Shown piece after piece: positions 1,293 through 37,765 of a stretch of 38,001 nucleotides of DNA. Source of the DNA: Phycisphaerales bacterium (GTDB lineage: Bacteria; Planctomycetota; Phycisphaerae; Phycisphaerales; SM1A02); assembly GCA_009691705.1 (NCBI GenBank), contig SIAR01000024.1, forward strand, positions 1-38,001, written 5' to 3'. Numbering within the stretch: the first letter of the stretch is position 1; each line of letters begins with the position of its first letter. The translations under genes were made by a program, and so were the position numbers. Under the pieces are notes generated by a model. That model was not told the DNA's origin. It did no database searches and was given only the letters and a program-made list of their open reading frames with translations.

Positions 1293-1299
1293 TGGGGCT

Positions 1300-1305
1300 A
1301 TCCTA
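1300..1305 (-). promoter_or_regulatory. TAGGAT -10-like box
   Basis: On the minus strand TAGGAT ends 7 bases before the ATG at 1292, a spacing that would place transcription start at or next to the start codon. I see no convincing -35. It belongs to the window-wide TAnnnT set. Confidence 0.45.
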
Positions 1306-1339
1306 GCGAAGAGATGGAAGAATCGAGAGAGATTCAACG

Positions 1340-3184
1340 ATGACAGAACTTGGTCCCATCATCACGCTGATTGCCCGTGCTCGCCGGCGATTGTTTCTCG
1401 CAGATCTTGTTCAGAAACTTGCGCGTGGGCTGCTCATTGCGGGAATAGCGCTCGCACTCGTCGCACTCGTTGCCAAGGTGATCGCTCCTTGGTGGACGGC
1501 GGCCGCGCAGGAACGTGGGATGTGGTTTGCGATTCTCGTTGGCGTCGTGCTGGGCACGCTCGCGGTGTATGCATTCCTCGCTCGGACGCGCGATCGCACA
1601 GATGTTGCAATCGCTTCACTCGTCGACGTTCGGTTGAAGTTGCACGACCGCCTCTCGACAGCGGTGGCGGTCGCAGGTCGAACCGATCCATTCGCCCGTG
1701 CAGCAGTCGAGGATGGTCTTATGGTCGCAGCGGACCGCCGATTTGCAGAAGCATTGCCACGCGCAATTCCCATCACGACGCCAAAGAACTGGTGGACGGG
1801 TCCGCTCTTGTGCATGATTGCAGCCGCAATTTGGTGGTTTGTTCCAGCGCTTTCGCTGGCTGGCATCGCTACGGCAGCGGCACAGAGCGACGCCGACCTC
1901 CAAGCAGCACGCGACGCTGCCAAGATGCAGATGGAGTCGCTTCAGATGAAACTCGATGAGAACCCGGAACTTTCCAAGGCCGTCGCGGGAAGTGAGAGTG
2001 ACAAGTCACTCGCTCCAGAATTGAGCGACGAAAAACTACACACGCCAGAAGAGGTGCGGCGCGAGACGACCCGCAAGGTGAATGAACTTTCCAAGCGTCT
2101 CGATGAACTGCTCGGTGGCGAGCAAGCCCAACAGTTGGAGGCGATGAAGGAGGCGCTGAGTCGTATTGAGCCGGCGCAGAGTGGTCCACTTCAGAAGTTG
2201 GCAGAAGCGCTCAAACGAGGCGACGCGGCAGTAGCCAAGAGCGAACTCGAGAATCTGCAGAAGCGACTCAACGAAGGCAAGATGGACGAGAACGCCCGCA
2301 AGGAACTCGCGGCGAAGTTGCAAGATCTCGCCGAGCAGTTGAAAGACGCGGCAAAAGCAGGGGATGCGCTGCAGAAGGCTCTTGAAAACGCCGGGCTCGA
2401 CGGTGCGCTTGCCAAGAATCCTGCGGCGGCAAAGGCGGCGATCGAAGCGGCAAAGAATCTCAATGATGCGCAAAAACAGGCGCTCAAGCAGGCAATCGCC
2501 GCCCAGAGCAAGGCGGGTGAGAAACTCGAGAAGCTCGCCAAGGCGTGCGAGTCGATGTGCTCCCAGTGCAAGAATGGCGGGAGCAAGTCAGGAAAGGCCG
2601 GCAGCAAGTCGGGTCAGTCGGGTGAGTCTTCGTCGGCGACTCCATCAAGCAGCGATGGCAACACCGAAGTCGCATCAGAGTCTTTGAGCGAAATGGAAAT
2701 GCTCAACGAAATGATGAAGGATGCCGAGTCGGCCCGATCGCAGTGCCAGAAGAGTTGTTCGAGTGGCAGCGCATCGGACGACGCCAGTTGTCAATCAACG
2801 ATGGGGGCGAATCGCGGGCGCGGCACTGGCGGCGAGCGCACCAAGCAAGAGACGGCAACTGGCACCAAGGCGCGTAAGGAAAAGGTCGAGAACACTGGTG
2901 GGGAAGTGATCGCACGACAACTCGTCGACGCGCCGCCGGTGGTGGGTGAAAGTCGTGCAACGTTGCAACAACTCTCGGGCGAAATCGGACGCGGGTATGA
3001 AGAGGGAACCGACGAAGATCCCGTTCCCGCAAACTTGCGTGAAGTGCACAAGCATTACTTTGGCGATCTCAAGAAGAAGATCGATGCAAAGAGTGTGCAG
3101 CCTGCGCAGCCGTCGACCGCCCCCACGACGCCACCCGGGGCAGCGGCGCGTGAGACTCCCGCGAGCGATGGCGCAAAGAAGTAA
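1340..3184 (+). CDS. Three-helix membrane protein with long coiled coil and Cys-containing low-complexity region
   Basis: This is the first gene of the MoxR/vWA operon, 614 residues. Hydrophobic segments lie at about 30-50, 60-82 and 152-178. Next comes a long Lys/Glu/Ala-rich helical stretch at about 185-400 that should form coiled coils. A Gly/Ser-rich region with clustered cysteines follows (C-x3-C-x2-C at 403, 407 and 410, and a second cluster from 469). A short conserved-looking tail contains YEEGTDEDPVPANLREVHKH. Proteins of this shape occur beside MoxR/BatA genes in planctomycetes and resemble DUF4175-type proteins, but I cannot confirm the family. The ATG is preceded by a GAGAGA Shine-Dalgarno-like run. 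The stop overlaps the next start by one base (TAATG). It may scaffold the vWA proteins in the membrane; that is inference. Confidence 0.85.
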   Translation: MTELGPIITLIARARRRLFLADLVQKLARGLLIAGIALALVALVAKVIAPWWTAAAQERGMWFAILVGVVLGTLAVYAFLARTRDRTDVAIASLVDVRLKLHDRLSTAVAVAGRTDPFARAAVEDGLMVAADRRFAEALPRAIPITTPKNWWTGPLLCMIAAAIWWFVPALSLAGIATAAAQSDADLQAARDAAKMQMESLQMKLDENPELSKAVAGSESDKSLAPELSDEKLHTPEEVRRETTRKVNELSKRLDELLGGEQAQQLEAMKEALSRIEPAQSGPLQKLAEALKRGDAAVAKSELENLQKRLNEGKMDENARKELAAKLQDLAEQLKDAAKAGDALQKALENAGLDGALAKNPAAAKAAIEAAKNLNDAQKQALKQAIAAQSKAGEKLEKLAKACESMCSQCKNGGSKSGKAGSKSGQSGESSSATPSSSDGNTEVASESLSEMEMLNEMMKDAESARSQCQKSCSSGSASDDASCQSTMGANRGRGTGGERTKQETATGTKARKEKVENTGGEVIARQLVDAPPVVGESRATLQQLSGEIGRGYEEGTDEDPVPANLREVHKHYFGDLKKKIDAKSVQPAQPSTAPTTPPGAAARETPASDGAKK

Positions 3185-4425
3185 TGTCGATGATGGTGCA
3201 GTCGACTCGTCGAATCGCCGCGCTGGTTCGCTGCACGGCAGGCGCGCTATGCATGCTCGCAGTCGTGGCGTGTGGCGAAACCCCCGCGGAAACCCCCGCG
3301 GAAACCCCCGCAGAAACCCCCGCAGAAACCCCCGCGGAATCCCCAGCCGGGAGTGCATCCGAGCCATTCGACTCGGGACGCGAAGTCGTCGTCTATGTGA
3401 GCACCGATGAATCGATCGCCCGTCCAATTCTCGATGCGTTTGAGCGCGCATCAGGAGTGCACGTTCGAGCCCGCTATGACAGCGAGAACTCCAAGGCAAC
3501 CGCACTCGCGGCGATGATTCGCGCAGAAGCCGATACTCCCCGCGCTGATGTCTTCTGGTCGGGAGAGTGTTTCGTTGCAGCGCAACTCGCGCAGGAACTC
3601 TTGGCCGATCCTTGGCGCAGTCGCCGCGTCGATCAGTTTCCGGCGCTGTTGCGCGGGGCATCGGGTCGTTGGTACGGGATGACGCCGCGGGTGCGCGTGT
3701 TGGTGTACGACCCAGCGCGCATTGCAGTGAACGAACTTCCGGCATCAATGATCGATCTCACCGATCCCAAGTGGGATGGTCGCATCGCGATCGCTGATCC
3801 ACGGTTTGGAACGACGCGCGGTCACATCGGGGCGTTTGCGGCGCGACTCGCGGCGGGCGAACCAGGGGGTTCGATGGCTTGGATGGAATGGGTCAATGGG
3901 ATCGCGTCGAACCATCCAATGATTCTGGTTGGCGGGAATGCGGCAGTTGTCGACGCCGTCGCGCGCGGTGAAGCGCAATTGGGACTCACAGATTCGGACG
4001 ATTTCTACGCCGCTGTGGCGGGCGGTGCAAAGTTGGCGATGATTGCGTTGCGGCAACTGCCTCTTGGCGAAAGCGCGGGAGGTGCGATGGTGATTCCCGC
4101 GAGTGTTGCAATGGTGGCGCACGCTCCACACCCTGCCCAAGCGAATGCGTTGATGACCTTTCTTCTCGATCGAGATGTGTCACAGTGGATGCATCAATCG
4201 ACGCAAGGAACACTGCTCTTGCCAGAACTGGCGCAGTTGAACGGAAGCGATACCTCGCCCGCGCCGCCGCCGAGCGGAATTCCACTGATGTCTGAGTCTT
4301 GCGTGCCGCTGCGCATTGACACGGTCGACGATCCATTTCAGTTTGATGCCGATGAGCTTGCCCCGACCCTCGACAAGGCGATTGCAGAGTTCATGCAGGC
4401 GTGTCGAAGGGAGTCTCGTCAGTGA
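3184..4425 (+). CDS. Iron-type ABC transporter substrate-binding lipoprotein
   Basis: A 413-residue lipoprotein: signal peptide with lipobox VVAC (Cys30), a (GluThrProAla) tether, then a periplasmic binding fold of the Fe(III)-binding group (FbpA/FutA-like). Family-like features are an opening VVVYVSTDESIARPILDAFE, the segment RADVFWSGE, WYGMTPRVRVLVYDP in the middle, LTDPKWDGRIAIADPRFGTT, and GEAQLGLTDSDDFY near the site where iron-binding tyrosines usually sit. Fe(III) is the best guess; other small oxyanion or polyamine-like ligands cannot be excluded. The gene is coupled to the upstream membrane protein (1-base overlap) and to the downstream permease (GTGA overlap), so binding protein and permease should be made together. 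No ATPase subunit lies nearby. Confidence 0.87.
   Translation: MSMMVQSTRRIAALVRCTAGALCMLAVVACGETPAETPAETPAETPAETPAESPAGSASEPFDSGREVVVYVSTDESIARPILDAFERASGVHVRARYDSENSKATALAAMIRAEADTPRADVFWSGECFVAAQLAQELLADPWRSRRVDQFPALLRGASGRWYGMTPRVRVLVYDPARIAVNELPASMIDLTDPKWDGRIAIADPRFGTTRGHIGAFAARLAAGEPGGSMAWMEWVNGIASNHPMILVGGNAAVVDAVARGEAQLGLTDSDDFYAAVAGGAKLAMIALRQLPLGESAGGAMVIPASVAMVAHAPHPAQANALMTFLLDRDVSQWMHQSTQGTLLLPELAQLNGSDTSPAPPPSGIPLMSESCVPLRIDTVDDPFQFDADELAPTLDKAIAEFMQACRRESRQ
3277..3348. repeat. 12-bp tandem repeat coding for ETPA tether
   Basis: Five copies of GAAACCCCCGCG (third base of the last codon varies) plus one degenerate copy follow directly after the lipidated Cys of the binding protein. 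They encode a flexible Glu-Thr-Pro-Ala spacer between membrane anchor and binding domain. Copy number is probably variable between strains. Confidence 0.9.
4407..4413 (+). promoter_or_regulatory. Shine-Dalgarno AAGGGAG for the permease gene
   Basis: AAGGGAG lies 8 bases before the GTG at 4422. This supports the GTG at 4422, which overlaps the preceding TGA as GTGA, over the GTG at 4401 further upstream. Confidence 0.65.
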
Positions 4426-7052
4426 CCGCCCAGCGCGCGGCGAGCGGTGGGTCAAACTTTCAATTGAGCTGCGCGATGTTGATCGCGATACCAGGGCTTC
4501 TGTGTCTGGGTGCGCTCGTCGGGTTGCCGATGGCAGTCGCAGCGGTCAAACTTGTGTGCGAGCCTGCACCGCCGCAACCGCTCGAGCCGTTCGATTCGTT
4601 CGCACTGCTGCTGCGTTCAACGGTGTGGGCGGTTGCAGTCGCAGTCGGAGCAGCAGTGTTGGGATGGTTTCCTGGTCGGGCGCTGCGCACTGCCGGAGTC
4701 GGGGTCTCGATGGTGGTGGTCGTTGCGTCACTCATTCCTGCGTACGCAATTTTTTTCTGTTGGTGGAGAGTGCTTCGACCCGGAAATGCAATCGCCGACT
4801 ACGCCATCGCGTATGAACTCACGCCACTATTGCGCGCGTCGGTCTTGGGTTGCGCACTCGTCGCCTGGAGTTGGCCAATTGCTGCCTGGATCTGTGCACT
4901 GCGCCGCTCGCCCAGCGACGAGACGACGCGCGCCTTGCTCGAACTTGATGGCGCTTCGGTGGCGCAGCGACTCGCCGCCTGTTGGCGAAGCGATTGCGGA
5001 TCCCTCACCATGTCAGTCGTTGTGATCGCGCTTGTGCTACTAGGCGAAACAACGGCGTTTGATGCTGCACAGGTCGCGACACTGGCGTCTGAGATTCGTG
5101 CGCTTGACGCGTCAGGGGCGAGCGTGCGTTCGGTCATGATCGCTGCCCTGCCGGCGATCATCCTCGCACTCGCGGTGAGCACCATCGTGGCGCGCCTACT
5201 CGTGCGCACCCTGCGCGACTCACGCGATGTGAGCGCCTCTGATGGGAGCGATCTGGGAGTACACGCACCGCATCATTCGAATCGGGTGAACCGTGGTGCA
5301 GGCGCGCGCGTTGGTCGCACACTCGCAATCGGTCTCGTCGTCGTGTTGACGCTGGTGCCCGTGGTGTGGCTCGCCGTGGACGAGGCCAACTCGACTGCGG
5401 CGCCGTCACTCGATGCACTGCACGCCCGGGGAGCGTTCAACACGCTCATGATGGCTGCCGTCTCAGGTGCGTTGTGCGCTCTCATCGCGATCGCGGGGGC
5501 GAGTCTCATGATGTGTGGAGGGCGTCGCACAATTCCAATCGTTCTCACACTCTCCCTTGTCGCACTCACCGCACCCGCAACGGTCGTCGCCCTCGCGACT
5601 GCTGAGTGTTGGCGCGCACTGCCAATGGGACGAACGGTCTACGACTCGTTTGTCATCGTCAGCCTGGCGGAAAGCGCTCGTTACAGCGCCGTCGCATTCG
5701 TGATCGGGCTCTGGGCAGCCACCGCGCTCACGAAACCGCAACGTGAAATCTGGGTCACTCTTGGGCGAACACCCCGCGACTTCATCCGCATGGGATGGCC
5801 CATCCTGCTGCGCGCCTCTATCGGTGGATGGCTCGTGACGACACTCTTGGCCGCGAGCGAAACGGCAGTTGCGGCACGACTCGAACCTCCGGGAATGGAC
5901 TGGATCTCGACCACGCTCTTGAATGCGATCCACTATCAAGATGCGCGTGGGGTAAGTGGGGCGATCCCATGGATGGCGGCACTCGCCTGCATCGGCGCGC
6001 TTGTGGCAGTGCTGGCATTTCGCACCATTGGCAGGGGCGCCCGTCATTCATCAGTCGGCACGCTACTGCTCTGCGTGGTTGGCGTAATCATGGTGAATGG
6101 GGTCGGATGCGGATCTGCCGCTGACGAGGGCAGTGCCTTCGATGAGTCGCGGCAATCGACCGTGCCGCTTCCTACCGATCAGGTCATCGGGCGTGCCGGG
6201 CGCACCGAGGGACGGTTCGACATTCCGCGCGCGTTCACGATCGACCCCGCGACTGGCGCTCTCTTTGTCGTTGACAAGAGTGGACGCGTGCAACGATTCG
6301 CCAGCGATGGCACCTTTGAATTGGCATGGAAGATGCCGAAGTTCGACAATGGCAAGCCCACAGGAATGACGTTTGGTCCCGATGGTCTGCTTTACGTTGC
6401 CGACACGCACGAACATCGGATTCTCCTCTTCGATCGCGAAGGCGTGGTGCAGAAATCAATTGGTTCGTACGGGCAAGCACCAGGGCAGTTTGTCTATCCA
6501 ACTGATGTCGCGTTCGATCCCGACGGCAAGCTCTACGTCAGTGAATACGGTGGCAACGACCGCATTCAAGTGTTCGACAAAGATGGAAGGTTTCTGCATG
6601 CTTTCGGCGTGCCAGGTGATGGGTTGGGGCAATTCGCCCGCCCCCAATCGCTGGCATTCTCTAAAGATGGCAGCGAACTCTTCGTCGCCGACTCGTGCAA
6701 CCACCGCATCCAAGTTTTTTCGGCCGAAGGAACTCTCAAGCGCGTGCTGTGCCGTCCCGGAGCCCGCGCCGGTGAGGTTGCATACCCATACGGGCTGTGC
6801 GCGCTCGATGATGGATCGCTCTTGATTGCCGAGTTTGGAAACTGCCGCGTGCAGCGCATCGACGCCGCGACCGGTGAGTCGCTCGCAATGCTTGGGGGTG
6901 GTGGACGATCAGTCGGTCGACTCAACGCACCGTGGTCGGTTGCAGTGCACGCCGGCCGCGCATACGTCTTGGATTGCGCCAACGGCAGGGTGCAGTCGAT
7001 GCCGATCACCGCCTTCGACGCGCCGCGTGAAGGGGCGCAACGCAGGCGGTAG
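4422..7052 (+). CDS. Two-module ABC permease fused to an NHL beta-propeller
   Basis: An 876-residue fusion. Residues 1 to about 545 hold two six-helix permease modules of the FbpB/ThiP iron-permease type; ELDGASVAQRLAACW in module 1 and LGRTPRDFIRMGWP in module 2 sit where the EAA loops that contact the ATPase are expected. An extra hydrophobic segment at about 555-575 ends in VNGVGCGSA, which looks like a lipoprotein signal. Residues from about 597 form an NHL six-bladed propeller with repeated YVADxxxHRI and FxPDGxLYV patterns. With 13 helices the propeller would face the periplasm if the N-terminus is cytoplasmic. Normally these would be separate permease and lipoprotein genes; here there is no stop between them. 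A GTG at 4401 is an alternative start. The stop is 5 bases before the next gene. Confidence 0.87.
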   Translation: MTAQRAASGGSNFQLSCAMLIAIPGLLCLGALVGLPMAVAAVKLVCEPAPPQPLEPFDSFALLLRSTVWAVAVAVGAAVLGWFPGRALRTAGVGVSMVVVVASLIPAYAIFFCWWRVLRPGNAIADYAIAYELTPLLRASVLGCALVAWSWPIAAWICALRRSPSDETTRALLELDGASVAQRLAACWRSDCGSLTMSVVVIALVLLGETTAFDAAQVATLASEIRALDASGASVRSVMIAALPAIILALAVSTIVARLLVRTLRDSRDVSASDGSDLGVHAPHHSNRVNRGAGARVGRTLAIGLVVVLTLVPVVWLAVDEANSTAAPSLDALHARGAFNTLMMAAVSGALCALIAIAGASLMMCGGRRTIPIVLTLSLVALTAPATVVALATAECWRALPMGRTVYDSFVIVSLAESARYSAVAFVIGLWAATALTKPQREIWVTLGRTPRDFIRMGWPILLRASIGGWLVTTLLAASETAVAARLEPPGMDWISTTLLNAIHYQDARGVSGAIPWMAALACIGALVAVLAFRTIGRGARHSSVGTLLLCVVGVIMVNGVGCGSAADEGSAFDESRQSTVPLPTDQVIGRAGRTEGRFDIPRAFTIDPATGALFVVDKSGRVQRFASDGTFELAWKMPKFDNGKPTGMTFGPDGLLYVADTHEHRILLFDREGVVQKSIGSYGQAPGQFVYPTDVAFDPDGKLYVSEYGGNDRIQVFDKDGRFLHAFGVPGDGLGQFARPQSLAFSKDGSELFVADSCNHRIQVFSAEGTLKRVLCRPGARAGEVAYPYGLCALDDGSLLIAEFGNCRVQRIDAATGESLAMLGGGGRSVGRLNAPWSVAVHAGRAYVLDCANGRVQSMPITAFDAPREGAQRRR

Positions 7053-7057
7053 CCTGA

Positions 7058-9985
7058 GTGAAGTTCATGATTCCCATTGGCTTTGAACGTCCGATCGCGC
7101 TTCTCCTGCTCGTTGTGCTTCCCGCGCTCTGGTGGATGAGTTGGCGTCACCGACACGCCACAGGTATCGCTCGGGCGTGGACGAGCGCAGTCGTGCGATC
7201 ATTGCTCGTGGCACTCTTGGCATTGAGTCTTGCGCAACCATCGATCGTGCGCACCGGCGAGGGAGTCACAGTGCTTGTCGTTGCCGATGTGAGCCGATCA
7301 ATTCCAAGCAATCTTCTTTCGAGTGCGGAGGCAGCGCTGCAACTGGCGACGAAGACGCCGCCCAATCGTGCCGATCGTGTTGGTGTTGTAACGGTTGCGC
7401 GCGATGCAGCAGTTGCAGAGATTCCAGCGGTCGGTGGCGAGGTTTCATTTGGAGGACACGGAGGAGAACTGGATGGATCGAGCCTCGCGCATGGAGTGCG
7501 CCGGGCGCTTGCACTGCTGCCATCCGACACGATGAACAGGCTCTTGCTCGTCTCAGACGGCAACGAGACGGCGGGAAGTTTGCGCGAAGCAGCGGCGCTC
7601 GCGAAGGCGAACCACATTCCCATTGATGTTGTCGCGATCGAATACAACCAAACGGGCGTGACGATCTTCGAGGGGATTCGCGCGCCGACGCGGGCGCGAC
7701 TCGGTCAGACCGCCGACCTAAAACTCTTTCTTCGAAGCCAAGGTGGAGCCTCCGGCACGCTCTACGTGAAAGAAAACGGAAAGCCTGTTGATCTCGACAG
7801 TGGTGCAGTGGGGGATGGTCTGGCGGTGACTCTCAACGCTGGTCCCAACACCTTCGAAGTGCCGATGAGTTTGGATTCGACCGGAGCGCAGCGTTACGAA
7901 GCAGTCTTCGAACCCGACGCCGCCAGCATGGACGGGGTTGTCGAAAACAAACGAGGTGCCGCGACTGTGTTTGTATCTGGCGAGGGACGCGTACTCGTGG
8001 TCGACAAAGATGGCAACGAAGGCGCGGCACTCATCGCTGCCCTTCGCGGCGGTGGATTGCTCGTCGATGTTGTCAATCCAGAACGACTGAGTGATGGCAT
8101 CGCATTTCTCGCTGGCTACGACGCAGTCGTGCTTGTGAACATGGCACGATTTGAGATCGATAACGCGACCGACCGCAGCCTCCATGCCTATGTGCACGAA
8201 TTGGGCGGTGGACTGCTCATGGTGGGCGGCGATAAATCGTTTGGCGCTGGCGGATGGATCGACAGCGAAACGTCAAAGGTGCTGCCGGTGCAATTGAATC
8301 CGCCTGCGACGCGTGAGCTTCCGCGCGGTGCGCTTGCGCTTGTGATGCACTCTTGCGAGATGCCGCAAGCAAATTTTTGGAGCGAACAAGTTGCAGTCAG
8401 TGCCATCGAGGCGCTTTCACGGCTCGACTATGCCGGAATTGTGGTCTTCAACTACGGGGTGAAGGATGGCATCAATGGAGCGGGTTGGTACTTCCCGATG
8501 CAGATAGTTGGCAACAAGGGTGCGGCGCTCAAGGCGGCTCGCACCATGCCAGTGGGAGATATGCCCGACTTCGGCGCGTCGATGACCGCAGCACTCGCGG
8601 GGCTGATCGCTGTTCCAGCTGGGCAGCGCCACGCGATCGTGATCTCGGACGGCGATCCCGCGCCGCCGAGTCAAGAATTGCTGGCCAAATTCAAAACGGC
8701 AAAGGTCACGGTGACAACAATCATGATCGCTGGTCACGGCACCGCTGAAGACTTGCAGAACATGAAGGCGATGGCAGAGTGGACGGGTGGCAACTTCTAC
8801 AACGTGATGAATCCAAAGTTGCTGCCGAAGATCTTCATCAAAGAGGCGACACTCGTCGCGCGCAGTCTGCTCGTGGAGGGAGATTTTCAGCCCTCGGTTG
8901 CACCAACAATCGGCGGTCCTATCGAGGGGGTCACAGCTGTTCCGATGGTGAAGGGGTACGTGCTCACCGTACCGCGCGAGGGGTTGGCGCAGATTCCCAT
9001 ACTCAACCGCACATCCGAGGGGAACGATCCAATCTTTGCATCGTGGAACTTCGGTCTTGGAAAATCCGCAGTCTTCACCAGTGACTTGAGTGGGCGTTGG
9101 GGAGGGGCATGGCCGGCATGGAGCGGATTTCAAGGGATGTGGGAGCGAGTCGTGCGGTGGTTGATGCGACCGGCGGCGCCGTCGAATGTGCTGTTGAAGA
9201 CCCGCCTCGAAGGTGAAGAGGCGACGGTCGAACTTGAAGCGATTGGCGGAGAATCTGGATTGATGAATTTCATGCGTACAGACGCGCGCGTGGTTGGTCC
9301 CGATGGTGCGACCTCGCCCCTCGCGCTCGAGCAGGTTGCGCCAGGTCGTTACCGTGGCACATTTCAGACCAGCCAAACGGGTTCGTATCTCATTGATGTT
9401 GGATTGCTCGATGGCACAGGAGCACGGACCGGTGGATCGATTCAGGGTGCTGTCACGCTGGCGTATCCCCGCGAGTTTCGCACTAGTCGAGACAACGCCG
9501 CACTTCTTCGGGCGATTGCTGAAGAAACTGGAGGGCGCATCTTTCGAGTGAGCGATCTCGCAGTGGCAGATCTCTTCGACCGAACTGGACTTGCTCCCCC
9601 CCAGAGCGTTAGGCGCATCTGGGACATCCTTGCGATCGTCGCGGCGGCATTCTTGGTGATCGATGTCGCCGTGCGCCGACTCGTGATCGACCGTGAGTCG
9701 GCCCGTGAAGCGGCGCAACAAGCCTTCGGTTCAGCGCGTGGCACTGGCGGCGAAGTCGTCGCGGCGTGGAAAAAGGCACGGCGCGGTTCAACGGTGAAAG
9801 CGTCGATTGAACAGGTTGCGCCAGATACCCGGCGCGCGCCAGTGATCGCACTCCCGACAGAACCCAAGGTCGAAGCACGCGAAGAACTGCAGTCGCCCGC
9901 AGAAGAATCTTCAATGGATCGCTTGCGCCGCGCAAAGCAGCGCGCCAAGGGTGAGCACGACGACGCCGGCGGTAACGTGCCATGA
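7058..9985 (+). CDS. Membrane vWA / glutamine-amidotransferase-like protein of the MoxR cluster
   Basis: A 975-residue membrane protein. Two N-terminal helices (about 11-28 and 46-60) are followed by a vWA domain with an intact MIDAS start, DVSRS at 77-81, and SDGNE further on. A class I glutamine-amidotransferase-like fold at about 310-415 contains GGGLLMVGGDKSFGAGGW. A second vWA-like part includes HAIVISDGDP. A C-terminal helix at about 850-872 precedes a charged cytoplasmic tail ending in RRAKQRAKGEHDD. This is the architecture of the large vWA proteins that accompany MoxR and BatA in planctomycetes. The role is presumably metal-dependent protein interaction at the cell surface. The start is a GTG at 7058; ATG at 7067 is an alternative. 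The stop overlaps moxR (ATGA). Confidence 0.9.
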   Translation: MKFMIPIGFERPIALLLLVVLPALWWMSWRHRHATGIARAWTSAVVRSLLVALLALSLAQPSIVRTGEGVTVLVVADVSRSIPSNLLSSAEAALQLATKTPPNRADRVGVVTVARDAAVAEIPAVGGEVSFGGHGGELDGSSLAHGVRRALALLPSDTMNRLLLVSDGNETAGSLREAAALAKANHIPIDVVAIEYNQTGVTIFEGIRAPTRARLGQTADLKLFLRSQGGASGTLYVKENGKPVDLDSGAVGDGLAVTLNAGPNTFEVPMSLDSTGAQRYEAVFEPDAASMDGVVENKRGAATVFVSGEGRVLVVDKDGNEGAALIAALRGGGLLVDVVNPERLSDGIAFLAGYDAVVLVNMARFEIDNATDRSLHAYVHELGGGLLMVGGDKSFGAGGWIDSETSKVLPVQLNPPATRELPRGALALVMHSCEMPQANFWSEQVAVSAIEALSRLDYAGIVVFNYGVKDGINGAGWYFPMQIVGNKGAALKAARTMPVGDMPDFGASMTAALAGLIAVPAGQRHAIVISDGDPAPPSQELLAKFKTAKVTVTTIMIAGHGTAEDLQNMKAMAEWTGGNFYNVMNPKLLPKIFIKEATLVARSLLVEGDFQPSVAPTIGGPIEGVTAVPMVKGYVLTVPREGLAQIPILNRTSEGNDPIFASWNFGLGKSAVFTSDLSGRWGGAWPAWSGFQGMWERVVRWLMRPAAPSNVLLKTRLEGEEATVELEAIGGESGLMNFMRTDARVVGPDGATSPLALEQVAPGRYRGTFQTSQTGSYLIDVGLLDGTGARTGGSIQGAVTLAYPREFRTSRDNAALLRAIAEETGGRIFRVSDLAVADLFDRTGLAPPQSVRRIWDILAIVAAAFLVIDVAVRRLVIDRESAREAAQQAFGSARGTGGEVVAAWKKARRGSTVKASIEQVAPDTRRAPVIALPTEPKVEAREELQSPAEESSMDRLRRAKQRAKGEHDDAGGNVP

Positions 9986-13978: not shown

Positions 13979-13983
13979 CTGGA

Positions 13984-14648: not shown

Positions 14649-14654
14649 ATCATA
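14649..14654 (-). promoter_or_regulatory. TATGAT -10-like box
   Basis: On the minus strand TATGAT ends 8 bases before the ATG at 14640. It differs from the TATAAT consensus at one position. The spacing predicts a transcript beginning at or beside the start codon. Confidence 0.5.
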
Positions 14655-16813: not shown

Positions 16814-16819
16814 AGGTTA
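16814..16819 (-). promoter_or_regulatory. TAACCT -10-like box
   Basis: On the minus strand TAACCT ends 9 bases before the ATG at 16804. It is a weaker match and lies between two same-strand genes, so read-through from cdsA could also express the gene. Confidence 0.3.
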
Positions 16820-17756: not shown

Positions 17757-17762
17757 AGTGTA
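17757..17762 (-). promoter_or_regulatory. TACACT -10-like box
   Basis: On the minus strand TACACT ends 8 bases before the first cdsA ATG at 17748. It lies in the 97-base divergent gap shared with the winged-helix gene. Confidence 0.4.
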
Positions 17763-17833: not shown

Positions 17834-17839
17834 TACGAT
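17834..17839 (+). promoter_or_regulatory. TACGAT -10-like box
   Basis: TACGAT ends 6 bases before the ATG at 17846, the expected distance for a leaderless transcript. No -35 is evident. It supports this ATG over upstream in-frame starts. Confidence 0.45.
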
Positions 17840-19632: not shown

Positions 19633-19638
19633 AACCTA
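19633..19638 (-). promoter_or_regulatory. TAGGTT -10-like box
   Basis: On the minus strand TAGGTT ends 8 bases before the ATG at 19624. A GTAGG run in the same spot could instead act as a Shine-Dalgarno, so the reading is ambiguous. Confidence 0.3.
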
Positions 19639-19769: not shown

Positions 19770-20032
19770 TTGTGCGCTGGTTCAAAGCCACATTCGCGCA
19801 GAAAGCGCCGAATGTGGCCAATCTCATCATTATTGTCGAGCGTGTGATGACCGTGTCTTGGAATCAGAAAGGTCATCTCTTTTCCTTTTAGTTTGACCTT
19901 GAGATGATCCTTCTTGGTCTCCTCAGCGACGCCACCGAGCCCCTCGAAAAGCTTGACAATATCTCTCCAGGCGATGTTGTGTGATGTTGGGTGGGCGAAG
20001 AGTTGCTTCAATGTTTCTTGTGTATGCGGCAT
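19766..20032 (-). CDS. HicA-like protein, no HicB partner seen
   Basis: An 88-residue protein resembling HicA-family toxins, which are small double-stranded-RNA-binding-fold mRNA interferases. The match covers NIAWRDIVKLFEGLGGVAEE, then a beta pair around KKDHLKVKLKG (His43 in the region of the catalytic His), FLIPRHG and the closing helix IGHIRRFLRECGF. Free HicA proteins are usually near 60-80 residues. No hicB follows or precedes; the lectin gene starts 141 bases downstream and the divergent sulfotransferase upstream. It is either a solitary HicA-like protein with another role or part of a broken module. A TACCCT box precedes the ATG by 7 bases. Confidence 0.7.
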   Translation of the reverse strand: MPHTQETLKQLFAHPTSHNIAWRDIVKLFEGLGGVAEETKKDHLKVKLKGKEMTFLIPRHGHHTLDNNDEIGHIRRFLRECGFEPAHK

Positions 20033-20039: not shown

Positions 20040-20045
20040 AGGGTA
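20040..20045 (-). promoter_or_regulatory. TACCCT -10-like box
   Basis: On the minus strand TACCCT ends 7 bases before the ATG at 20032 of the HicA-like gene. Confidence 0.4.
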
Positions 20046-20156: not shown

Positions 20157-20162
20157 TAGAGT
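20157..20162 (+). promoter_or_regulatory. TAGAGT -10-like box
   Basis: TAGAGT ends 6 bases before the ATG at 20169 of the TPR-sulfotransferase. No Shine-Dalgarno is visible in the six intervening bases, which fits a leaderless start. Confidence 0.4.
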
Positions 20163-21632: not shown

Positions 21633-22585
21633 ACCAGCGGCGCGGCAAGTTGGTCGCCCCACTCGCTTCGCGCGCTGGAGTTGGACCAAGTCGCACATGT
21701 CTGCCCGCGGGGTCGTGGACCACGATCGCCGAGTGTTTGATCGAGCGGTTTCCTGAGGCAGACCAAGCGGAGTGGATGAGACGCATCGCAGAGAGAGAGG
21801 TTGTTGATCGCGATGGCATCGTTGTCAGCGCGTCACGCAGACACGAACCAGGGTTAGTCGTTTTCTATTACAGAACCCTCGGTAACGAAGTGCGTATTCC
21901 CTTCGACGAAGTCGTGCTCTTTCAAGATGAGCACATCGTCGTCGCTGATAAGCCCCACTTTCTTCCGGTGATTCCAGCGGGTCGCTACTTGCAAGAGACG
22001 CTCCTGGTGCGTCTCAAGCGCAAACTTGGCATCGACACACTCGTGCCGATTCACCGCATCGATCGGGCAACAGCGGGGTTGGTGGTCTTTAGCGCGCAAG
22101 AGAGCACGCGCGACCGCTACCAAGCCCTCTTTCGCGAGCGATTGGTTGAGAAGCAGTACGAGGCGATCGCTTCGCGCAACATTGCTCTGCAATTGCCGAT
22201 GGTGTACGAGAGCAGAGTGGTTCAAGATGACCACTTCATGCGCATGCGCGAGGTTGCCGGACATCCCAATGCAAGCACACACATAGCGCTCATCGAAACG
22301 CTCGTATCCGCCACGGGCGCGGGCGAGTGTGCGCGCTATCGCCTTGCGCCAACCAGTGGACGCAAACATCAGTTGCGCGTGCAGTGCGCGGCGCTTGGTA
22401 TCCCAATACTCAATGACCCGATCTACCCAGTGCTCTTGCCGTCGCCACCGCAGGGCGAGCAAGACGACTATTCAAAGCCGCTGCAACTTCTCGCGCGGGT
22501 AGTCGCCTTTGCCGATCCTGTCACGGGTCAAGCGCGCCGGTTTGAGAGTCGGCGCAGGCTCGATTGGCCAACGACTGCTCTATAG
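21629..22585 (+). CDS. RluA-family pseudouridine synthase
   Basis: A 318-residue RNA pseudouridine synthase. The N-terminal 95 residues look S4-like in position ([18 protein letters not shown]). The catalytic domain opens [14 protein letters not shown] and has [13 protein letters not shown] with the catalytic Asp at about 145, then KQYEAIAS and a closing RHQLRVQ equivalent, [15 protein letters not shown]. The target (23S rRNA or tRNA) cannot be decided. The ATG at 21629 overlaps the sulfotransferase stop by 4 bases; an in-frame upstream start at 21551 would lie inside that gene and add a Cys-rich segment, so I reject it. Confidence 0.9.
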
Positions 22586-22586
22586 T
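22581..22586 (+). promoter_or_regulatory. TATAGT -10-like box
   Basis: TATAGT, one base from consensus, ends 6 bases before the ATG at 22593 of trhO. It also contains the stop codon of the upstream synthase gene (TAG at 22583-22585). Confidence 0.5.
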
Positions 22587-23987: not shown

Positions 23988-23993
23988 AGAGTA
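23988..23993 (-). promoter_or_regulatory. TACTCT -10-like box
   Basis: On the minus strand TACTCT ends 7 bases before the apt ATG at 23980. Confidence 0.4.
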
Positions 23994-24036: not shown

Positions 24037-24042
24037 TATGAT
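24037..24042 (+). promoter_or_regulatory. TATGAT -10-like box deciding the copper ATPase start
   Basis: TATGAT ends 6 bases before an in-frame GTG at 24049 and lies downstream of the ATG at 24016. If it is the promoter, translation must start at 24049 or 24052. Confidence 0.45.
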
Positions 24043-27936: not shown

Positions 27937-27942
27937 GCGGTC

Positions 27943-27948
27943 AGAGTA
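27943..27948 (-). promoter_or_regulatory. TACTCT -10-like box (divergent pair)
   Basis: On the minus strand TACTCT ends 6 bases before the ATG at 27936. It overlaps the plus-strand TACCTT box at 27947-27952, so the two promoters would compete. Confidence 0.45.
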
Positions 27949-27952
27949 CCTT
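27947..27952 (+). promoter_or_regulatory. TACCTT -10-like box (divergent pair)
   Basis: TACCTT ends 8 bases before the ATG at 27961 and 5 before the GTG at 27958 of the MFS gene. It shares bases 27947-27948 with the opposite-strand box. Confidence 0.35.
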
Positions 27953-27960
27953 TCGAAGTG

Positions 27961-29274
27961 ATGACGATTCCTGCCGCAACTGCCACGCCCCGCGCGCAAG
28001 CGCTCGTCATCATCGTGGCCGCGCTTGGTTACTTCGTCGACATATTTGACTTGCTGCTCTTCGCGATCGTGCGGGTAGAGAGTCTTAAGTCGCTCGGCGT
28101 CGCCGCCGACCAACTCAAGCCGGTGGGACTCTGGCTCGACAACTATCTGCAGGTCACCGGACTCGTTGTGGGAGGAATTGTGTGGGGCATCTTGGGCGAT
28201 CGTCGGGGTCGTCTCACCGTGCTCTTTGGATCGATCATCGTCTACTCGATCGCAAACATTCTCAACGCCTTTATCGCCGATGTGCCCAATGCAGGTTGGG
28301 GGGCAGTGCTGCACGCGGTGGGGCTCGGGGGAGCAATAGAACAGTATGGAGTGCTGCGGTTTGTTGCGGGGTTTGGACTCGCGGGCGAACTGGGGGCCGG
28401 CATCACGCTCGTCAGCGAACTCGTCAGTAAGGAGCGGCGTGGGCTTGCCACTACAGTCGTGGCAACGGTCGGCATTTGCGGCGCAATCGTTGCATATTTC
28501 GTCACACGGGTCGTCGAGTGGCGCACGGCGTTTCTCATCGGCGGCATCATGGGATTGGCGCTGCTCTTTCTGCGCATCGGAGTCGTCGAAAGCGGGATGT
28601 TTCGCGACGCGCAAGCGAAAGATGTCGTCGGCCGTGGGGCATTCTGGTTGCTGTTCACTCCCTGGAAGCGGCTGCGCAGATATCTCGCGGTGGTCGTCTG
28701 TGCGATTCCTATCTGGTTCTCGGTTGGCATCTTGATCAAGTACTGCGATTCGATTTCAGCAAGCCTTGGGATGCCCGAGGGTGCACGGCCGACTCCTGGA
28801 CTCGCCATCATGTGGTGCTACGTTGGGCTGGCATTGGGCGATCTCTCGAGCGGTGTGCTCAGTCAGTTGCTCAAGTCGCGCCGACAAGCGCTGCTGAGTT
28901 TTCATGCGCTCACCGTGGTGAGTATCGCTCTCTACTTCACGGTGGGGGCAACGTCTCTGAGTGCCTTTTACTACTGCGCGGTCGCACTTGGTTTCGCGTG
29001 CGGATATTGGGCAGTCTTTGTGACCGTTGCGGCAGAGCAGTTTGGCACGAACCTGCGCGCGACCGCTACAACATCCGCTCCCAATTTCGTGCGCTGGTCG
29101 GCTGCGGGCAGCGCATTTCTGTGGACCGCGACCGAGAGAGTTCTGGGAGACTCGCCGAATTCTCTGTGGCAAGCCGCAGTAATCGTGGCCGCAATCGTCA
29201 TTCCGCTCGCCGTGGTTGCGGTCTTTTTTCTGCAAGAGACATACGGACGCGATCTCAACTTCGTCGAAGACTAA
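27961..29274 (+). CDS. MFS transporter of the tyrosine-catabolism cluster
   Basis: A 437-residue major facilitator protein with about 12 hydrophobic segments. The loop 2-3 signature is GILGDRRGRLTV, and the region VRFAGFG-like VLRFVAGFGLAGELGAGITL and SKERRGLATT are typical of the metabolite:H+ symporter group; the second half contains AEQFGTNLRATATT. The substrate is not readable, but the gene is followed after 27 bases by the unnamed 310-residue gene and fumarylacetoacetase, so an aromatic acid or related catabolite is a reasonable guess. GTG 27958 directly before the ATG is an alternative start. Confidence 0.9.
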   Translation: MTIPAATATPRAQALVIIVAALGYFVDIFDLLLFAIVRVESLKSLGVAADQLKPVGLWLDNYLQVTGLVVGGIVWGILGDRRGRLTVLFGSIIVYSIANILNAFIADVPNAGWGAVLHAVGLGGAIEQYGVLRFVAGFGLAGELGAGITLVSELVSKERRGLATTVVATVGICGAIVAYFVTRVVEWRTAFLIGGIMGLALLFLRIGVVESGMFRDAQAKDVVGRGAFWLLFTPWKRLRRYLAVVVCAIPIWFSVGILIKYCDSISASLGMPEGARPTPGLAIMWCYVGLALGDLSSGVLSQLLKSRRQALLSFHALTVVSIALYFTVGATSLSAFYYCAVALGFACGYWAVFVTVAAEQFGTNLRATATTSAPNFVRWSAAGSAFLWTATERVLGDSPNSLWQAAVIVAAIVIPLAVVAVFFLQETYGRDLNFVED

Positions 29275-29289: not shown

Positions 29290-29295
29290 TATCGT
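29290..29295 (+). promoter_or_regulatory. TATCGT -10-like box
   Basis: TATCGT ends 6 bases before the ATG at 29302. It lies in the 27-base gap after the MFS gene, so the downstream pair could be transcribed independently of the transporter. Confidence 0.4.
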
Positions 29296-29301: not shown

Positions 29302-30234
29302 ATGCAAAGCGTTCACGCACTCGTCGCATCCATTGTTGATTACGCAGGTCTCTATCCACCGGCCCAACTCGACCCTGCGACGGCGGTGCGTAGTTATTCG
29401 CACGTGCACGCATCCAATCGCCAATGGATGCTCGGTCGTTTGATCTGGCCCGTCGCGCTGCTCGACCAACTCTCCTCGCTCGCAGTGGGACATGCGCCCG
29501 AAGCGGTGCTCCCTGAGACTCACGGAGCGTGGGCGATCTCATGCATTCTCTCTCCGGCGGGAACGCCCGAGTTCGTTGAAGAACTCGACCGCGTGCAAGC
29601 CTTCAATGAGCAGCACGATGAGGTTGGCAGCCCAGCGATGCGCATCGACTCGCTCGAGATGCGTGCCCCCGATCCATCTGCAGTCGAACGCGCCCTCAGT
29701 CACCTGCCCGATGACATGTTCCCCTATTTCGAGATCGCACTAGATAGTGATCCGCGTGGTGTCATCGCCTCTCTCGTTGGTGAAGAGGCGGGGGCAAAGT
29801 TTCGCACGGGCGGCACCACCCCGCAGGCCCATCCAACAGCGGGGGATCTTGCGCGTGGCATGCATGCGTGCGCATCGGCGGGAGTGCCGTTCAAAGCGAC
29901 GGCGGGATTGCACCGCGCGCTCTGTCACTTCAACACTGCGGCAGGATCGAAGCAGTTTGGATTCCTCAACGTGCTGCTCGGGGCAGCATTCATCTTCAAC
30001 CGAAAGTGCGACGTCGAGGGGCTCGCCCGATTCCTGACAGTGGGTTCGGTCGATGAGATCGAGTTCAATGAGAAGGCGATGAGTTGGCATGGGGTGCGCG
30101 TCTCACTCGACGAGATTGAAGAGACCCGAAGTCGGTTCGCGCATTCATTTGGTTCATGCTCGTTTGACGAGGCATGGGATGACCTCGTTGCAATGGAAGT
30201 TGTGCGGGCGGTTTCGGCCGGCGGTGCAGCGTGA
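29302..30234 (+). CDS. Uncharacterised protein coupled to fumarylacetoacetase
   Basis: A 310-residue protein without a signal peptide. I do not know a named family, but it has strongly motif-like segments: DYAGLYPPA at 13-21, GAKFRTGGTT at 164-173, and FKATAGLHRAL at 197-207, followed by FGFLNVLLGAAF. The alternation of strands and helices and the KxRTGG / FKATAGLH pair suggest an enzyme with a barrel-like fold, with conserved Lys residues at 166 and 198 and His204. I believe similar proteins with AGLxPPA exist in other phyla but cannot check. The stop overlaps the fumarylacetoacetase start (GTGA). Because maleylacetoacetate isomerase is missing here, a role in that step is possible but speculative. 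Confidence 0.85.
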   Translation: MQSVHALVASIVDYAGLYPPAQLDPATAVRSYSHVHASNRQWMLGRLIWPVALLDQLSSLAVGHAPEAVLPETHGAWAISCILSPAGTPEFVEELDRVQAFNEQHDEVGSPAMRIDSLEMRAPDPSAVERALSHLPDDMFPYFEIALDSDPRGVIASLVGEEAGAKFRTGGTTPQAHPTAGDLARGMHACASAGVPFKATAGLHRALCHFNTAAGSKQFGFLNVLLGAAFIFNRKCDVEGLARFLTVGSVDEIEFNEKAMSWHGVRVSLDEIEETRSRFAHSFGSCSFDEAWDDLVAMEVVRAVSAGGAA

Positions 30235-32141: not shown

Positions 32142-33371
32142 TTACCAAGTGTTCACTTGGTCGGGGTGATTTGGGCCTGGACCTGCAGGGCCATCCTGTC
32201 CCCAACTCATTGGATAGTGCGAATCGTCAAGTTCTATCGCCGCCTTCGTTGGAAAGAGCGGGCGAAAAGTATCGCACATCACGGCAAGTTCGTCGGTTTT
32301 GGTTGCCCCGATCGACGACTCCACAGTGCCTGGGTGGGGACCGTGTGGAATCCCCTGCGGATGCAGGGTGAGTGATGCGCTCTCGATTCCCCGTCGCGCC
32401 TTGTAGTTGCCTTCGACGTAGTAGAGCACTTCATCGGAATCGAGGTTGGAGTGGTTGTATGGCACAACAATCGCTTGGGGATGGAAGTCGAGCAACCGCG
32501 GACAGAACGAGCAGATCACGAAGTTGTGCGCTTCGAACGTCTGGTGGGTCGGCGGCGGCAAGTGATGTTTGCCAACGATCGGGCTGAAGTCATCGATGTT
32601 GAAGATGTACGGGTAGTAGCAACCATCCCAGCCAACCACATCAAGCGGGTGATAGCGATACTGATATGCGTGCACAGCACCGCGCGTTTTGATTCGCACT
32701 TCATAGGTACCAAGTTCGTCGAACGTCAGCGGCAGTTGCGGCAATCGCAGGTCGCGCTCGCAGTAGGGGGCATGCTCGAGAAACTGCGAAGTCTGCTTCG
32801 AGAGATAGCGCCGTGGTGGAAGTATGTGCGATCCATTCACTGACTCAATCATCAAGAATCGCGCGGGCGGCGCGCCTGCGGCCGTGGGATCGAAGATCAT
32901 CTGATAGGTCACACCCTTGGGGATGATGATGTAATCCTTGGGGCCGAATCGCAGTGTGCCGAAGATTGAATGCACAACACCAGAACCGTGATGAACGAAG
33001 ATGCACTCATCACCCGTGCCGCTCTTGAACCAATAGTTCATGGCCTCGGCGGGCACACATACTGACATTTCAACATCTTCATTTCCAAAGAGCACGACCC
33101 GACCAGTAACTGGATCGCCTTTGGGTGGCATTGGCGCGCTGCGCACATGGCGCATGCGCATGACATCGCGTTCGACGTACTCGGGTTTGCACGTGTAGAT
33201 CGGCCGCCATCCCGTCACTTGAGTCGGTGGATGAATGTGGTACAGCGTCGATGTCGGACCGACGAAACCTTCCGTGCCGAAGACCTCTTCGCTGTACAAC
33301 CTGCCGTCTGGGCGACGGAATTGAATGTGGCGCTTGTTCGGAAGTTGACCGAGTGTCGTGTAGAAAGCCAT
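32142..33371 (-). CDS. hmgA: Homogentisate 1,2-dioxygenase
   Basis: A 409-residue non-haem iron dioxygenase opening the homogentisate ring to maleylacetoacetate. The cupin-like N-terminal part carries IFVHHGSGVVHSIFGTLRFG. The C-terminal iron site is in NHSNLDSDEVLYYVEGNYKA (His307, Glu314 in the expected ligand positions), then LHPQGIPHGPHPG (His337/343 region). PYNH and HGPHPGT are characteristic. The length fits bacterial enzymes. I chose ATG 33371; an in-frame start at 33557 lies in the divergent synthase gene. Orientation is opposite to fahA. It is followed by the DUF192 gene. Confidence 0.95.
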   Translation of the reverse strand: MAFYTTLGQLPNKRHIQFRRPDGRLYSEEVFGTEGFVGPTSTLYHIHPPTQVTGWRPIYTCKPEYVERDVMRMRHVRSAPMPPKGDPVTGRVVLFGNEDVEMSVCVPAEAMNYWFKSGTGDECIFVHHGSGVVHSIFGTLRFGPKDYIIIPKGVTYQMIFDPTAAGAPPARFLMIESVNGSHILPPRRYLSKQTSQFLEHAPYCERDLRLPQLPLTFDELGTYEVRIKTRGAVHAYQYRYHPLDVVGWDGCYYPYIFNIDDFSPIVGKHHLPPPTHQTFEAHNFVICSFCPRLLDFHPQAIVVPYNHSNLDSDEVLYYVEGNYKARRGIESASLTLHPQGIPHGPHPGTVESSIGATKTDELAVMCDTFRPLFPTKAAIELDDSHYPMSWGQDGPAGPGPNHPDQVNTW

Positions 33372-33380
33372 TGCTCGCGT

Positions 33381-33386
33381 AGTGTA
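33381..33386 (-). promoter_or_regulatory. TACACT -10-like box
   Basis: On the minus strand TACACT ends 9 bases before the hmgA ATG at 33371. This is the outer limit of the spacing seen elsewhere. Confidence 0.35.
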
Positions 33387-33400
33387 CGGCGGTTGCTGCG

Positions 33401-34159: not shown

Positions 34160-34162
34160 GAG

Positions 34163-36502: not shown

Positions 36503-36536
36503 AATTATGTCTGTCGGGTGGAGTGCTGATCACAGT

Positions 36537-37739
36537 TCAAAGATTGCCGCGGCGCGCTTGCTCTTCTTCAAGGGACTGAAACAGCGCCTTAAAATTGCCC
36601 TTTCCAAAGGACTGACTGCCGCGGCGGCAAATGATCTCGAAGAAAAGGGTGGGGCGATCCTGAAGTGGCATCGTAAAGAGTTGCAGCAGGTACCCCTCGT
36701 CGTCGGCATCCACCAGGATGCCGAGTTCGCGCACGCGCTGGTGATCTTCTTTGACTGCCGTGTGCCCATGCGTCGTGAGTTCTTTGTTGACGCGGCTCCA
36801 GACCGACTCGTAATAGGTGTCAGGAATCGCGAGGAATTCAACGCCGCGACCGCGCAACTCTGCGACGCTCGAAAGTTCATCGTCAGTGCGAAGCGCCAAG
36901 TGTTGGATTCCAGGAGTCATGCCATGCCAATCGAGATACTCCTGCACTTGGCTCTTGCGTTTTCCCTCTGCGGGTTCGTTGATGGGCATTTTGATGAGGT
37001 GGTTTCCAGATGCCATCACCTTGCTCATGAGGGCGGAGTACTCCGTTGAGATGTCCTGTTCGTCGAAGTGCTTGAACATCGCAAACCCCATGACATCTTC
37101 GTACCACTTGACCCAGTGGTTCATCTTTCCAAGTTCGACATTACCCACGCAGTGATCGACGAACTTGAGCCCACAGGGATGGATGCGATTGAACTCGTTT
37201 AGCTTGAGGTTCTCGACCTTGCGAAAGGCTGGGGCGAAGAGTCCGCCCTGCTTGAGCGCGGGAAGGTCGTATCCGCCAGTGCGACTAACAAACGAATGCA
37301 CAACGCGTCCGTATGTTTGAATGCCCGCCATCGTGATTGATCCAGTTGAGTCGTGCGTTGTGCGCGGTTCGTAGGCCGAGACGCCACCGTTGCGTTTCGC
37401 CTGTTCCCAAGCCTTCTCGGCATCGAAGACGGTGAATGCGACATCTTTGATGCCATCGCCGTACTTGCCAAGTTCTGCAACCGCCGCGTGGTCGCTGGTG
37501 AGCGGGGTTTCGAGCAACAATCGGATGTTTCCCTGGGTCAAAAGGTACTGCGCGCATTGGCGATTGCCAGTGGTGAGGTCGTTGACTTGCTCAACTTGGA
37601 ATCCAAATGCGTAGGCGTAAAAGAACGCTGCCTGCTTCGCATTGCCGACAAAGAATCGCACATGATCGACGTCAATGAGCGTCAGCGGATCAGTAGCAGA
37701 CTTCGGCGCATCCTTGCTTGCTGGAGTGAGAGTTGCCAT
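36537..37739 (-). CDS. hppD: 4-hydroxyphenylpyruvate dioxygenase
   Basis: A 400-residue Fe(II) dioxygenase converting 4-hydroxyphenylpyruvate to homogentisate. Two VOC-type halves; iron ligands are His196 in FVDHCVGNVE, His280 in GIQHLAL and Glu368 in PTLFFEII. Other family segments are LIDVDHVRFFVGNA, NEPAEGKRKSQVQEYL and QLFTMPLQDRPT. The family C-terminal gate helix is present (FGKGNFKALFQSLEEEQ). I chose ATG 37739 because the codon before it is TTG and a TACCAT box lies 6 bases upstream. It feeds HGD (hmgA), encoded on the same strand 3.2 kb downstream. Confidence 0.97.
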   Translation of the reverse strand: MATLTPASKDAPKSATDPLTLIDVDHVRFFVGNAKQAAFFYAYAFGFQVEQVNDLTTGNRQCAQYLLTQGNIRLLLETPLTSDHAAVAELGKYGDGIKDVAFTVFDAEKAWEQAKRNGGVSAYEPRTTHDSTGSITMAGIQTYGRVVHSFVSRTGGYDLPALKQGGLFAPAFRKVENLKLNEFNRIHPCGLKFVDHCVGNVELGKMNHWVKWYEDVMGFAMFKHFDEQDISTEYSALMSKVMASGNHLIKMPINEPAEGKRKSQVQEYLDWHGMTPGIQHLALRTDDELSSVAELRGRGVEFLAIPDTYYESVWSRVNKELTTHGHTAVKEDHQRVRELGILVDADDEGYLLQLFTMPLQDRPTLFFEIICRRGSQSFGKGNFKALFQSLEEEQARRGNL

Positions 37740-37745
37740 CAAATG

Positions 37746-37751
37746 ATGGTA
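37746..37751 (-). promoter_or_regulatory. TACCAT -10-like box for hppD
   Basis: On the minus strand TACCAT ends 6 bases before the hppD ATG at 37739. It overlaps the plus-strand TATCGT at 37750-37755. Confidence 0.45.
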
Positions 37752-37755
37752 TCGT
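37750..37755 (+). promoter_or_regulatory. TATCGT -10-like box for the small membrane protein
   Basis: TATCGT ends 10 bases before the ATG at 37766, slightly longer than the 6-9 seen at other gene heads. It overlaps the hppD box on the other strand. Confidence 0.35.
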
Positions 37756-37765
37756 CTCGCCCCTT

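Follow-up and report, generated by a model that had tools for sequence, protein, structure and literature searches.

The 38,001-nucleotide stretch of a Phycisphaerales genome analyzed here (hereafter, the window) has a TAnnnT hexamer a few bases before many of its start codons, and the arrangement recurs across the source genome, an assembly of 1,985,919 bases in 46 contigs (93% complete) in which the window is contig C33. These hexamers are very probably promoter –10 boxes placed so that the mRNAs are leaderless or nearly so. We estimate that such genes make up about a third of promoter-proximal genes and roughly a quarter of all genes. An earlier note on the window had listed the boxes at 16 gene heads, plus one more at 37766, and read them as a leaderless promoter pattern. 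All box statistics given here were computed from the DNA sequence, from which transcript 5′ ends are only predicted; the statistics cover the box, its spacing, its specificity for gene classes, its exclusivity with Shine–Dalgarno (SD) sites, its conservation within the genus, and its occurrence before tRNA genes.

Genes were called with a program that relies solely on coding potential and the frequency of start codons and is blind to upstream signals. The first gene set held 1554 genes on 1,875,802 bases (1.88 of 1.99 Mb); 42 without a usable upstream neighbor or region were removed, which left 1512. The second, from a slightly different caller model, held 1564 genes with 1173 heads. We refer to the number of bases between the TAnnnT box and the start codon as the spacer, and the background for box counts was taken from 100 dinucleotide shuffles. 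At divergent heads, a box at spacers 5–9 was present in 157 of 504 cases (31%) compared with 20.6 in the shuffles (maximum of the 100: 34), and at spacers 6–11 in 184 compared with 24.4 (maximum 36). The shuffled rate of 4.1% agrees with the chance rate of about 4% claimed earlier. The same 504 heads gave 0, 2, 1, 3, 1, and 2 boxes at spacers 0–5, then 68, 30, 25, 33, 18, and 10 at spacers 6–11, and from there on 1–7 per spacer. Spacer 6 is thus a sharp lower edge, which would make the first base of the start codon +1 if the box ends at –7. TAnnnT ranked first among the 64 patterns of the form XYnnnZ at spacer 6, with a 19-fold excess compared with 2.5-fold for the next best. In-frame internal ATGs (n = 10336), by comparison, had a box at spacers 5–9 in only 0.34% of cases. 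The logo of 346 boxes reads TA[GC]n[CA]T. An annotation-free count of TA[CG]N[CA]T followed by ATG found 91 occurrences at spacer 6 and 9–29 at spacers 1–5 and 12–24. Together, these data indicate that the enrichment persists across the genome whether it is compared with shuffles, decoy starts, or other spacers, which answers the check that the earlier note had proposed. Its statement that most gene heads have the box is too strong for the genome as a whole, where 345 of the 1173 heads do. When alternative plausible starts were allowed, the count was 486 of 1170 compared with 88–129 at five control spacer ranges, so that about a third of heads appear to be box-led.

Within the window, each of the 16 listed boxes was present on re-reading, none of them at spacer 5, as was the box before 37766 (Table 1). 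Four heads said to lack it (1340, 14689, 33401, and 36502) indeed have none at spacers 5–11, with one at spacer 15 before 33401, and there is no box within 30 bases upstream of 26303 and 32119. With blind starts, 15 of the 27 window heads have a box at spacers 6–11. Two of the 17 listed starts, 17846 and 24049, differ from the blind calls and may have been chosen on account of the box, and at 37766 no gene was called. Such cases could be taken to mean that the whole pattern is due to chance, or to starts picked to fit the box. This is exceedingly improbable, because the excess at blindly called divergent heads is of the size given above and the annotation-free pattern TASNMTN6ATG occurs 101 times in this genome compared with 17.9 expected from the mean of spacers 14–20.

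As a positive control we used the 150-kb Thermus plasmid pTT27, where 22 of 98 heads had a box compared with 4.8 at control spacers, one box being at spacer 5 and 10 at spacer 6. On this plasmid an SD-like site preceded one of the 22 box heads and 39 of the 76 others. By contrast, 100 kb of Escherichia coli K-12 gave 5 of 73 heads compared with 8.0 at control spacers, and none at spacer 6.

The box depends on the position of a gene in its operon. Among co-directional genes, boxes at spacers 5–9 were found in 26 of 220 with gaps of at least 80 bases (5.8 in shuffles), 49 of 244 with gaps of 26–79 (7.3), and 62 of 544 with gaps of 25 or less (9.3). Within the last class the boxes (spacers 6–11) were concentrated at gaps of 6–25, with 60 of 202 compared with 13 of 342 where the gap was 5 or less; at gaps of 6–40 on the same strand, 89 of 298 genes had one. 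Genes with gaps of 5 or less had an SD-like tetramer in 159 of 342 cases. The claim that operon-first genes have the box and internal genes do not is therefore borne out by the contrast between divergent heads (184 of 504) and overlapping or adjoining genes (13 of 342). SD-like sites are reduced, not absent, at box heads (36 of 345 compared with 234 of 828 other heads; Fisher P = 4 × 10⁻¹²). No 16S rRNA gene was found in this genome at its 93% completeness. Because of this, we sought the anti-SD sequence as the 14-mer TGGATCACCTCCTT, a candidate that was present in 42 of 61 genomes, including 10 of 18 congeners and not this genome itself, and whose matches may not all be 16S tails.

The box also stands before genes that are not translated. 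Of 36 predicted tRNAs, 19 had a box 9–15 bases upstream (about two expected at 0.9% per position), seven had one at 17–30, and 10 had none within 30 bases; it was never closer than 9. Its presence before tRNAs argues that the box is a promoter –10 element. That it never lies at spacer 6 before tRNAs, as it does before mRNAs, fits a transcription start about 7 bases past the box, since a pre-tRNA needs a leader. We found neither a position-specific TTG or TTGAC as a –35 element in 333 box heads nor a TGn extension of the –10 box at box heads. The missing –35 motif suggests that box heads have –10-only promoters. One might instead take the box for a translation signal or for an AT-rich, unstructured start region, and an AT-rich bias before starts can by itself reflect either –10 boxes or S1 sites (Nakagawa 2017, PMC5397173, in the part available to us). 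We consider this very unlikely: TAnnnT stands alone among the 64 patterns, it is rare at operon-internal starts, and the tRNA result largely refutes the idea.

RNA polymerase favors purines, above all A, as the first base of a transcript. At spacers 7–11, purines between T+7 and the ATG numbered 182 of 554, compared with 253.6 expected from non-box heads at matching places. Nearer the box, the spacer-6 genes that served as control had 343 of 660 compared with 302.2 expected and are purine-rich themselves. The start codons of the 346 box genes were 309 ATG, 36 GTG, and one TTG. GTG occurred in 32 of 196 genes at spacers 6–7 compared with 4 of 150 at spacers 8–11 (P = 2 × 10⁻⁵) and 145 of 837 non-box heads; TTG was called in 30 of those 837, these being the least reliable calls. 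The depletion of purines and the scarcity of GTG at spacers 8–11 look as if transcription starts at the start codon, and the GTG scarcity could come partly from errors in start calling.

Within the genus the box is conserved. For enolase, whose N-terminus is conserved, this genome and 17 congeners all have a spacer-6 box (18 of 18; the 18th congener was left out because it had only a fragment and no locus). Upstream of the gene, T at –12, A at –11, and T at –7 are invariant, and the commonest base reaches 5–16 of 18 in the other 37 columns. In four of these loci the upstream sequence differs in kind, as judged by eye, with the box and its spacer of 6 retained. In 36 orthologous heads shared with one congener (G014), 10 had the box in both genomes, four in each genome alone, and 18 in neither (P = 0.004). 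Separately, many congeners (L189–L206) have a conserved stretch with TTGTCCAC about 25–50 bases before eno, upstream of the box and at a varying distance from it, which we take to be similar to the DnaA box of high-G+C bacteria.

Several results weigh against our interpretation. Enolase genes of other genera had no box at spacers 6–11 in any of 12 loci (10 from the same family and two from the same order). Genes that have the box here also had it in seven other genera of the family in 1 of 6, 5 of 10, 0 of 9, 1 of 6, 3 of 8, 0 of 4, and 2 of 10 cases and in one genus of the order in 1 of 3, and box status did not agree significantly with any of the eight (smallest P = 0.08, for G027; 12–29 pairs each, so that power was low). 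Conservation is demonstrated within the genus only, and we rejected the idea that a constant core of genes is leaderless, box status being shared within the genus and showing no significant agreement across the eight genera. The intended actinobacterial control, 50 kb of Rhodococcus pRHL1, gave 2 of 36 heads compared with 0.2 expected, which is too small to use. More than half of the heads (594 of 1173) have neither a box nor an SD-like tetramer, so the box is not the sole route that does without SD. The purine contrast (Fisher P = 2 × 10⁻¹¹) is partly owed to the purine-rich control. Lastly, we infer from sequence alone the exact transcription start at the start codon, the sigma factor that reads the box, and the route of leaderless translation, and leaders of 1–5 bases are possible at spacers 8–11, which account for 150 of the 346 boxes.

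This last point leads to another reading, in which the –10 box is real, transcription of many genes starts 1–5 bases ahead of the start codon, and the short pyrimidine-rich leader is read in some other way, such as through S1 or an unstructured start. In its favor, 214 of the 346 boxes (62%) lie at spacers 7–11, C is common at –2 at spacers of 8 or more (0.48–0.64 before ATG at spacers 8–11 in this genome), and the genome has an open frame with six S1 domains. Against it, spacer 6 is the mode, there is no smooth extension past 11, and the short leaders are poor in the purines with which transcripts usually begin, as though selection acted against starts upstream of the start codon. We regard it as rather unlikely. 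The leaderless reading put forward in the earlier note is supported by the tRNAs, the purines, the congeners, and the Thermus profile; since spacers 8–11 leave room for short leaders, what these data support is a leaderless or near-leaderless state.

The affiliation of the window was checked with its MoxR ATPase. The nearest named relative comes from a metagenome-assembled genome (MAG) labeled Planctomycetota (67% identity; the source genome itself is possibly absent from the collection), and a tree that includes paralogues groups the window with this MAG and one labeled Phycisphaerae. The earlier assignment to planctomycetes was thus right, and Phycisphaerales is the probable order. The spread of the box was measured with the annotation-free count described above, with significance set at P < 10⁻³/80 for 80 genomes. 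A significant excess was found in this genome, 18 of 18 congeners, 16 of 18 other members of the family, and 21 of 24 of the order (56 of 61 in the order overall), compared with none of three class-mates outside the order. Other members of the phylum, hand-picked mostly for having few contigs, showed it in 6 of 16 cases. Among 40 hand-picked named genomes 12 were significant, 11 with planctomycete labels, including one Algisphaera, one Planctomycetaceae, and one Planctomycetia, and one Verrucomicrobia; there was no significant excess in Paenibacillus, Mucilaginibacter, Rhodopirellula, Terriglobia, or Fimbriimonadia. Only three of seven genomes labeled Phycisphaerales, Phycisphaerae, or Algisphaera were positive (L035, L052, and L081, not L031, L034, L063, or L065), and the label is thus no guide to the trait. 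Named loci of 20 kb (54 of 80, hand-picked) were too short for verdicts on single genomes, and whole-genome counts were used instead.

Across the 61 genomes of the order, the density of boxes per Mb drops with genome size (Spearman –0.74, kinship ignored) while the absolute excess is unrelated to it (–0.07); sizes were rounded and some genomes are only 70–90% complete. The density trend follows from the constant count and so is not by itself proof of selection. In samples of 55–80 kb, the share of heads with a box was 0.35–0.39 in G014, G036, and G023 (2.0–2.3 Mb), 0.26, 0.20, and 0.16 in G035, G022, and G030, and 0.06–0.13 in G051, G042, G033, G027, and G024 (3.3–4.6 Mb); the background is raised in G036 and G030, which are A+T-richer.

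Some divergent promoters are very compact. Boxes on either side were found in 26 of 252 divergent pairs, and they overlap in four, numbers too low for a statistical comparison. Two of the four form a TANNNTA heptamer. Their intergenic regions measure 17 and 19 bp, and their start codons lie 18 and 20 bp from each other (23168/23186 on contig C37 and 28489/28509 on contig C8). The other two share one TA, and one of them is the window pair 27936/27961 (intergenic region 27937–27960). The opposite boxes of 37739/37766 (37740–37765) likewise share one TA.

Table 1. TAnnnT boxes in the window, with the genes or starts that they precede
Box	Positions	Strand	Spacer	Gene or start
TAGGAT	1300..1305	-	7	3-1292
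TATGAT	14649..14654	-	8	13984-14640, TPR / Fe-traffic-like domains
TAACCT	16814..16819	-	9	16061-16804, zinc ribbon / CT398-like
TACACT	17757..17762	-	8	16852-17748, cytidylyltransferase family
TACGAT	17834..17839	+	6	ATG at 17846; blind caller prefers 17981
TAGGTT	19633..19638	-	8	18560-19624, C-type lectin domain
TACCCT	20040..20045	-	7	19766-20032, weak HicA-like match
TAGAGT	20157..20162	+	6	20169-21632, TPR sulfotransferase
TATAGT	22581..22586	+	6	22593-23447, UPF0176 / rhodanese
TACTCT	23988..23993	-	7	23453-23980, phosphoribosyltransferase
TATGAT	24037..24042	+	6	GTG at 24049, P-type ATPase; blind caller prefers ATG 24016
TACTCT	27943..27948	-	6	27475-27936; TA (27947-27948) common to opposite box
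TACCTT	27947..27952	+	8	27961-29274, MFS transporter; shared TA, 24-bp intergenic region
TATCGT	29290..29295	+	6	29302-30234
TACACT	33381..33386	-	9	32142-33371, homogentisate dioxygenase-like
TACCAT	37746..37751	-	6	36537-37739, glyoxalase family; TA (37750-37751) common to opposite box
TATCGT	37750..37755	+	10	ATG at 37766 near contig end; blind caller calls no gene there

The HicA-like match of the protein encoded at 19766–20032, a gene with a leaderless-type box, lies below the Pfam cut-off. The window also contains a same-strand run (1340–13978) that encodes a protein with a weak GA-module match, solute-binding, NHL-repeat, and VWA/GATase-like proteins, the MoxR ATPase, and DUF58 and BatA/VWA proteins. 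The last four genes of this run are joined by 4-base overlaps, and among the heads checked only that at 7067 has a box (spacer 11).

These observations suggest a model in which the boxes would act as –10 elements, most likely of the primary sigma factor, with no recognizable –35 element. RNA polymerase would start on the start codon or within a few bases of it, and the leaderless mRNAs would be translated via the start codon at their 5′ end without an SD site. Many downstream operon genes would rely on SD-like sites or stop–start overlaps, and the ribosomes needed for the SD-like genes may be at hand, given the anti-SD tail that appears intact in 10 of 18 congeners. A wider proposal is offered tentatively, as a possibility that we would not yet call the probable case. 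A whole planctomycete order may have made leaderless, –35-less transcription standard, in a development separate from those in Actinobacteria and Deinococcus. Leaders would be purged of purines, which would leave the A of AUG as the base on which the polymerase starts, so that the start codon would double as initiator. Box numbers would have stayed steady over three- to fourfold differences in genome size, with the carrier genes changing between genera, so that they dominate small genomes; the extreme would be a 17-bp intergenic region whose single symmetric TANNNTA drives a leaderless gene on either side.

A planctomycete lineage known here from genomes only would join the short list of bacteria rich in leaderless genes, and the counts indicate which planctomycetes to examine (one order yes, three class-mates no). 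Many heads in these MAGs have no SD site, and a rule that looks for TAnnnT 6–11 bases before the start would put wrongly called gene starts right. Two further questions come within reach of a test: does leaderless expression increase as genomes shrink, and does the start codon also act as the initiator of transcription?

Leaderless promoters of mycobacteria have a –10 box without a strong –35 element, and transcription starts at the AUG or GUG. CarD and RbpA serve them as helpers, and a difference from the promoters proposed here concerns CarD: no stand-alone CarD was found in this genome (93% complete), and its sole CarD-type domain sits in an open frame of 1097 amino acids, presumably the arrangement seen in Mfd. 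For bidirectional –10 promoters, the primary work is reportedly that of Warman in 2021. Bacteria are known to have symmetric promoters of this kind whose starts lie 18 bp from each other, according to the part of PMC10268837 at hand. Two pairs here resemble them in their overlapping boxes and in start codons 18 and 20 bp apart and differ in that both products are predicted to be leaderless mRNAs, with a whole intergenic region of 17 or 19 bp. That both divergent products are leaderless would be a new twist.

Other planctomycete work touches on the subject, as far as the accessible portions of these papers go. An upstream bias was noted in one planctomycete, with leaderless mRNA and/or S1 named as causes (Nakagawa 2017, PMC5397173), a 2019 study places Planctomycetes among groups with intermediate SD use (PMC6728339), and reduced freshwater Phycisphaerae of 2.6 Mb have been described (PMC6461901), which the present genome recalls by its small size. 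A search for leaderless genes in Phycisphaer- turned up only a table of anti-SD types in which the class is an entry; it covered the open-access literature, outside of which most subscription papers lie. Within that literature, leaderless genes in this order appear to be unreported.

The closest match is the TA-led class of Zheng 2011 (PMC3160421; consulted in part), in which such leaderless genes reach about 20% in Actinobacteria and about 40% in Deinococcus-Thermus. It is alike in having TANNNT about 12 bases before the start, a weak middle at high G+C, and a comparable share of genes. It differs in its lineages: the groups given in its section 7 for 207 positive genomes do not include planctomycetes, a word absent from its main text; here the trait occurs in a planctomycete order and in some of the phylum's other lineages. 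These groups agree with the earlier note, according to which such genes are known in Actinobacteria and Deinococcus with little on planctomycetes. In Deinococcus-Thermus, the "–10 region adjacent to ORFs" (open reading frames) acts as promoter of leaderless mRNA (PMC12340547, 2025; likewise in part). The same motif lies there directly before the open reading frame in another phylum; "planctomyc" is absent from the main text of that paper, and planctomycetes may be among the taxa in its domain-wide survey (Fig. S7). Set beside these systems, the proposed mechanism is one already known, and in this lineage it had been at most hinted at.

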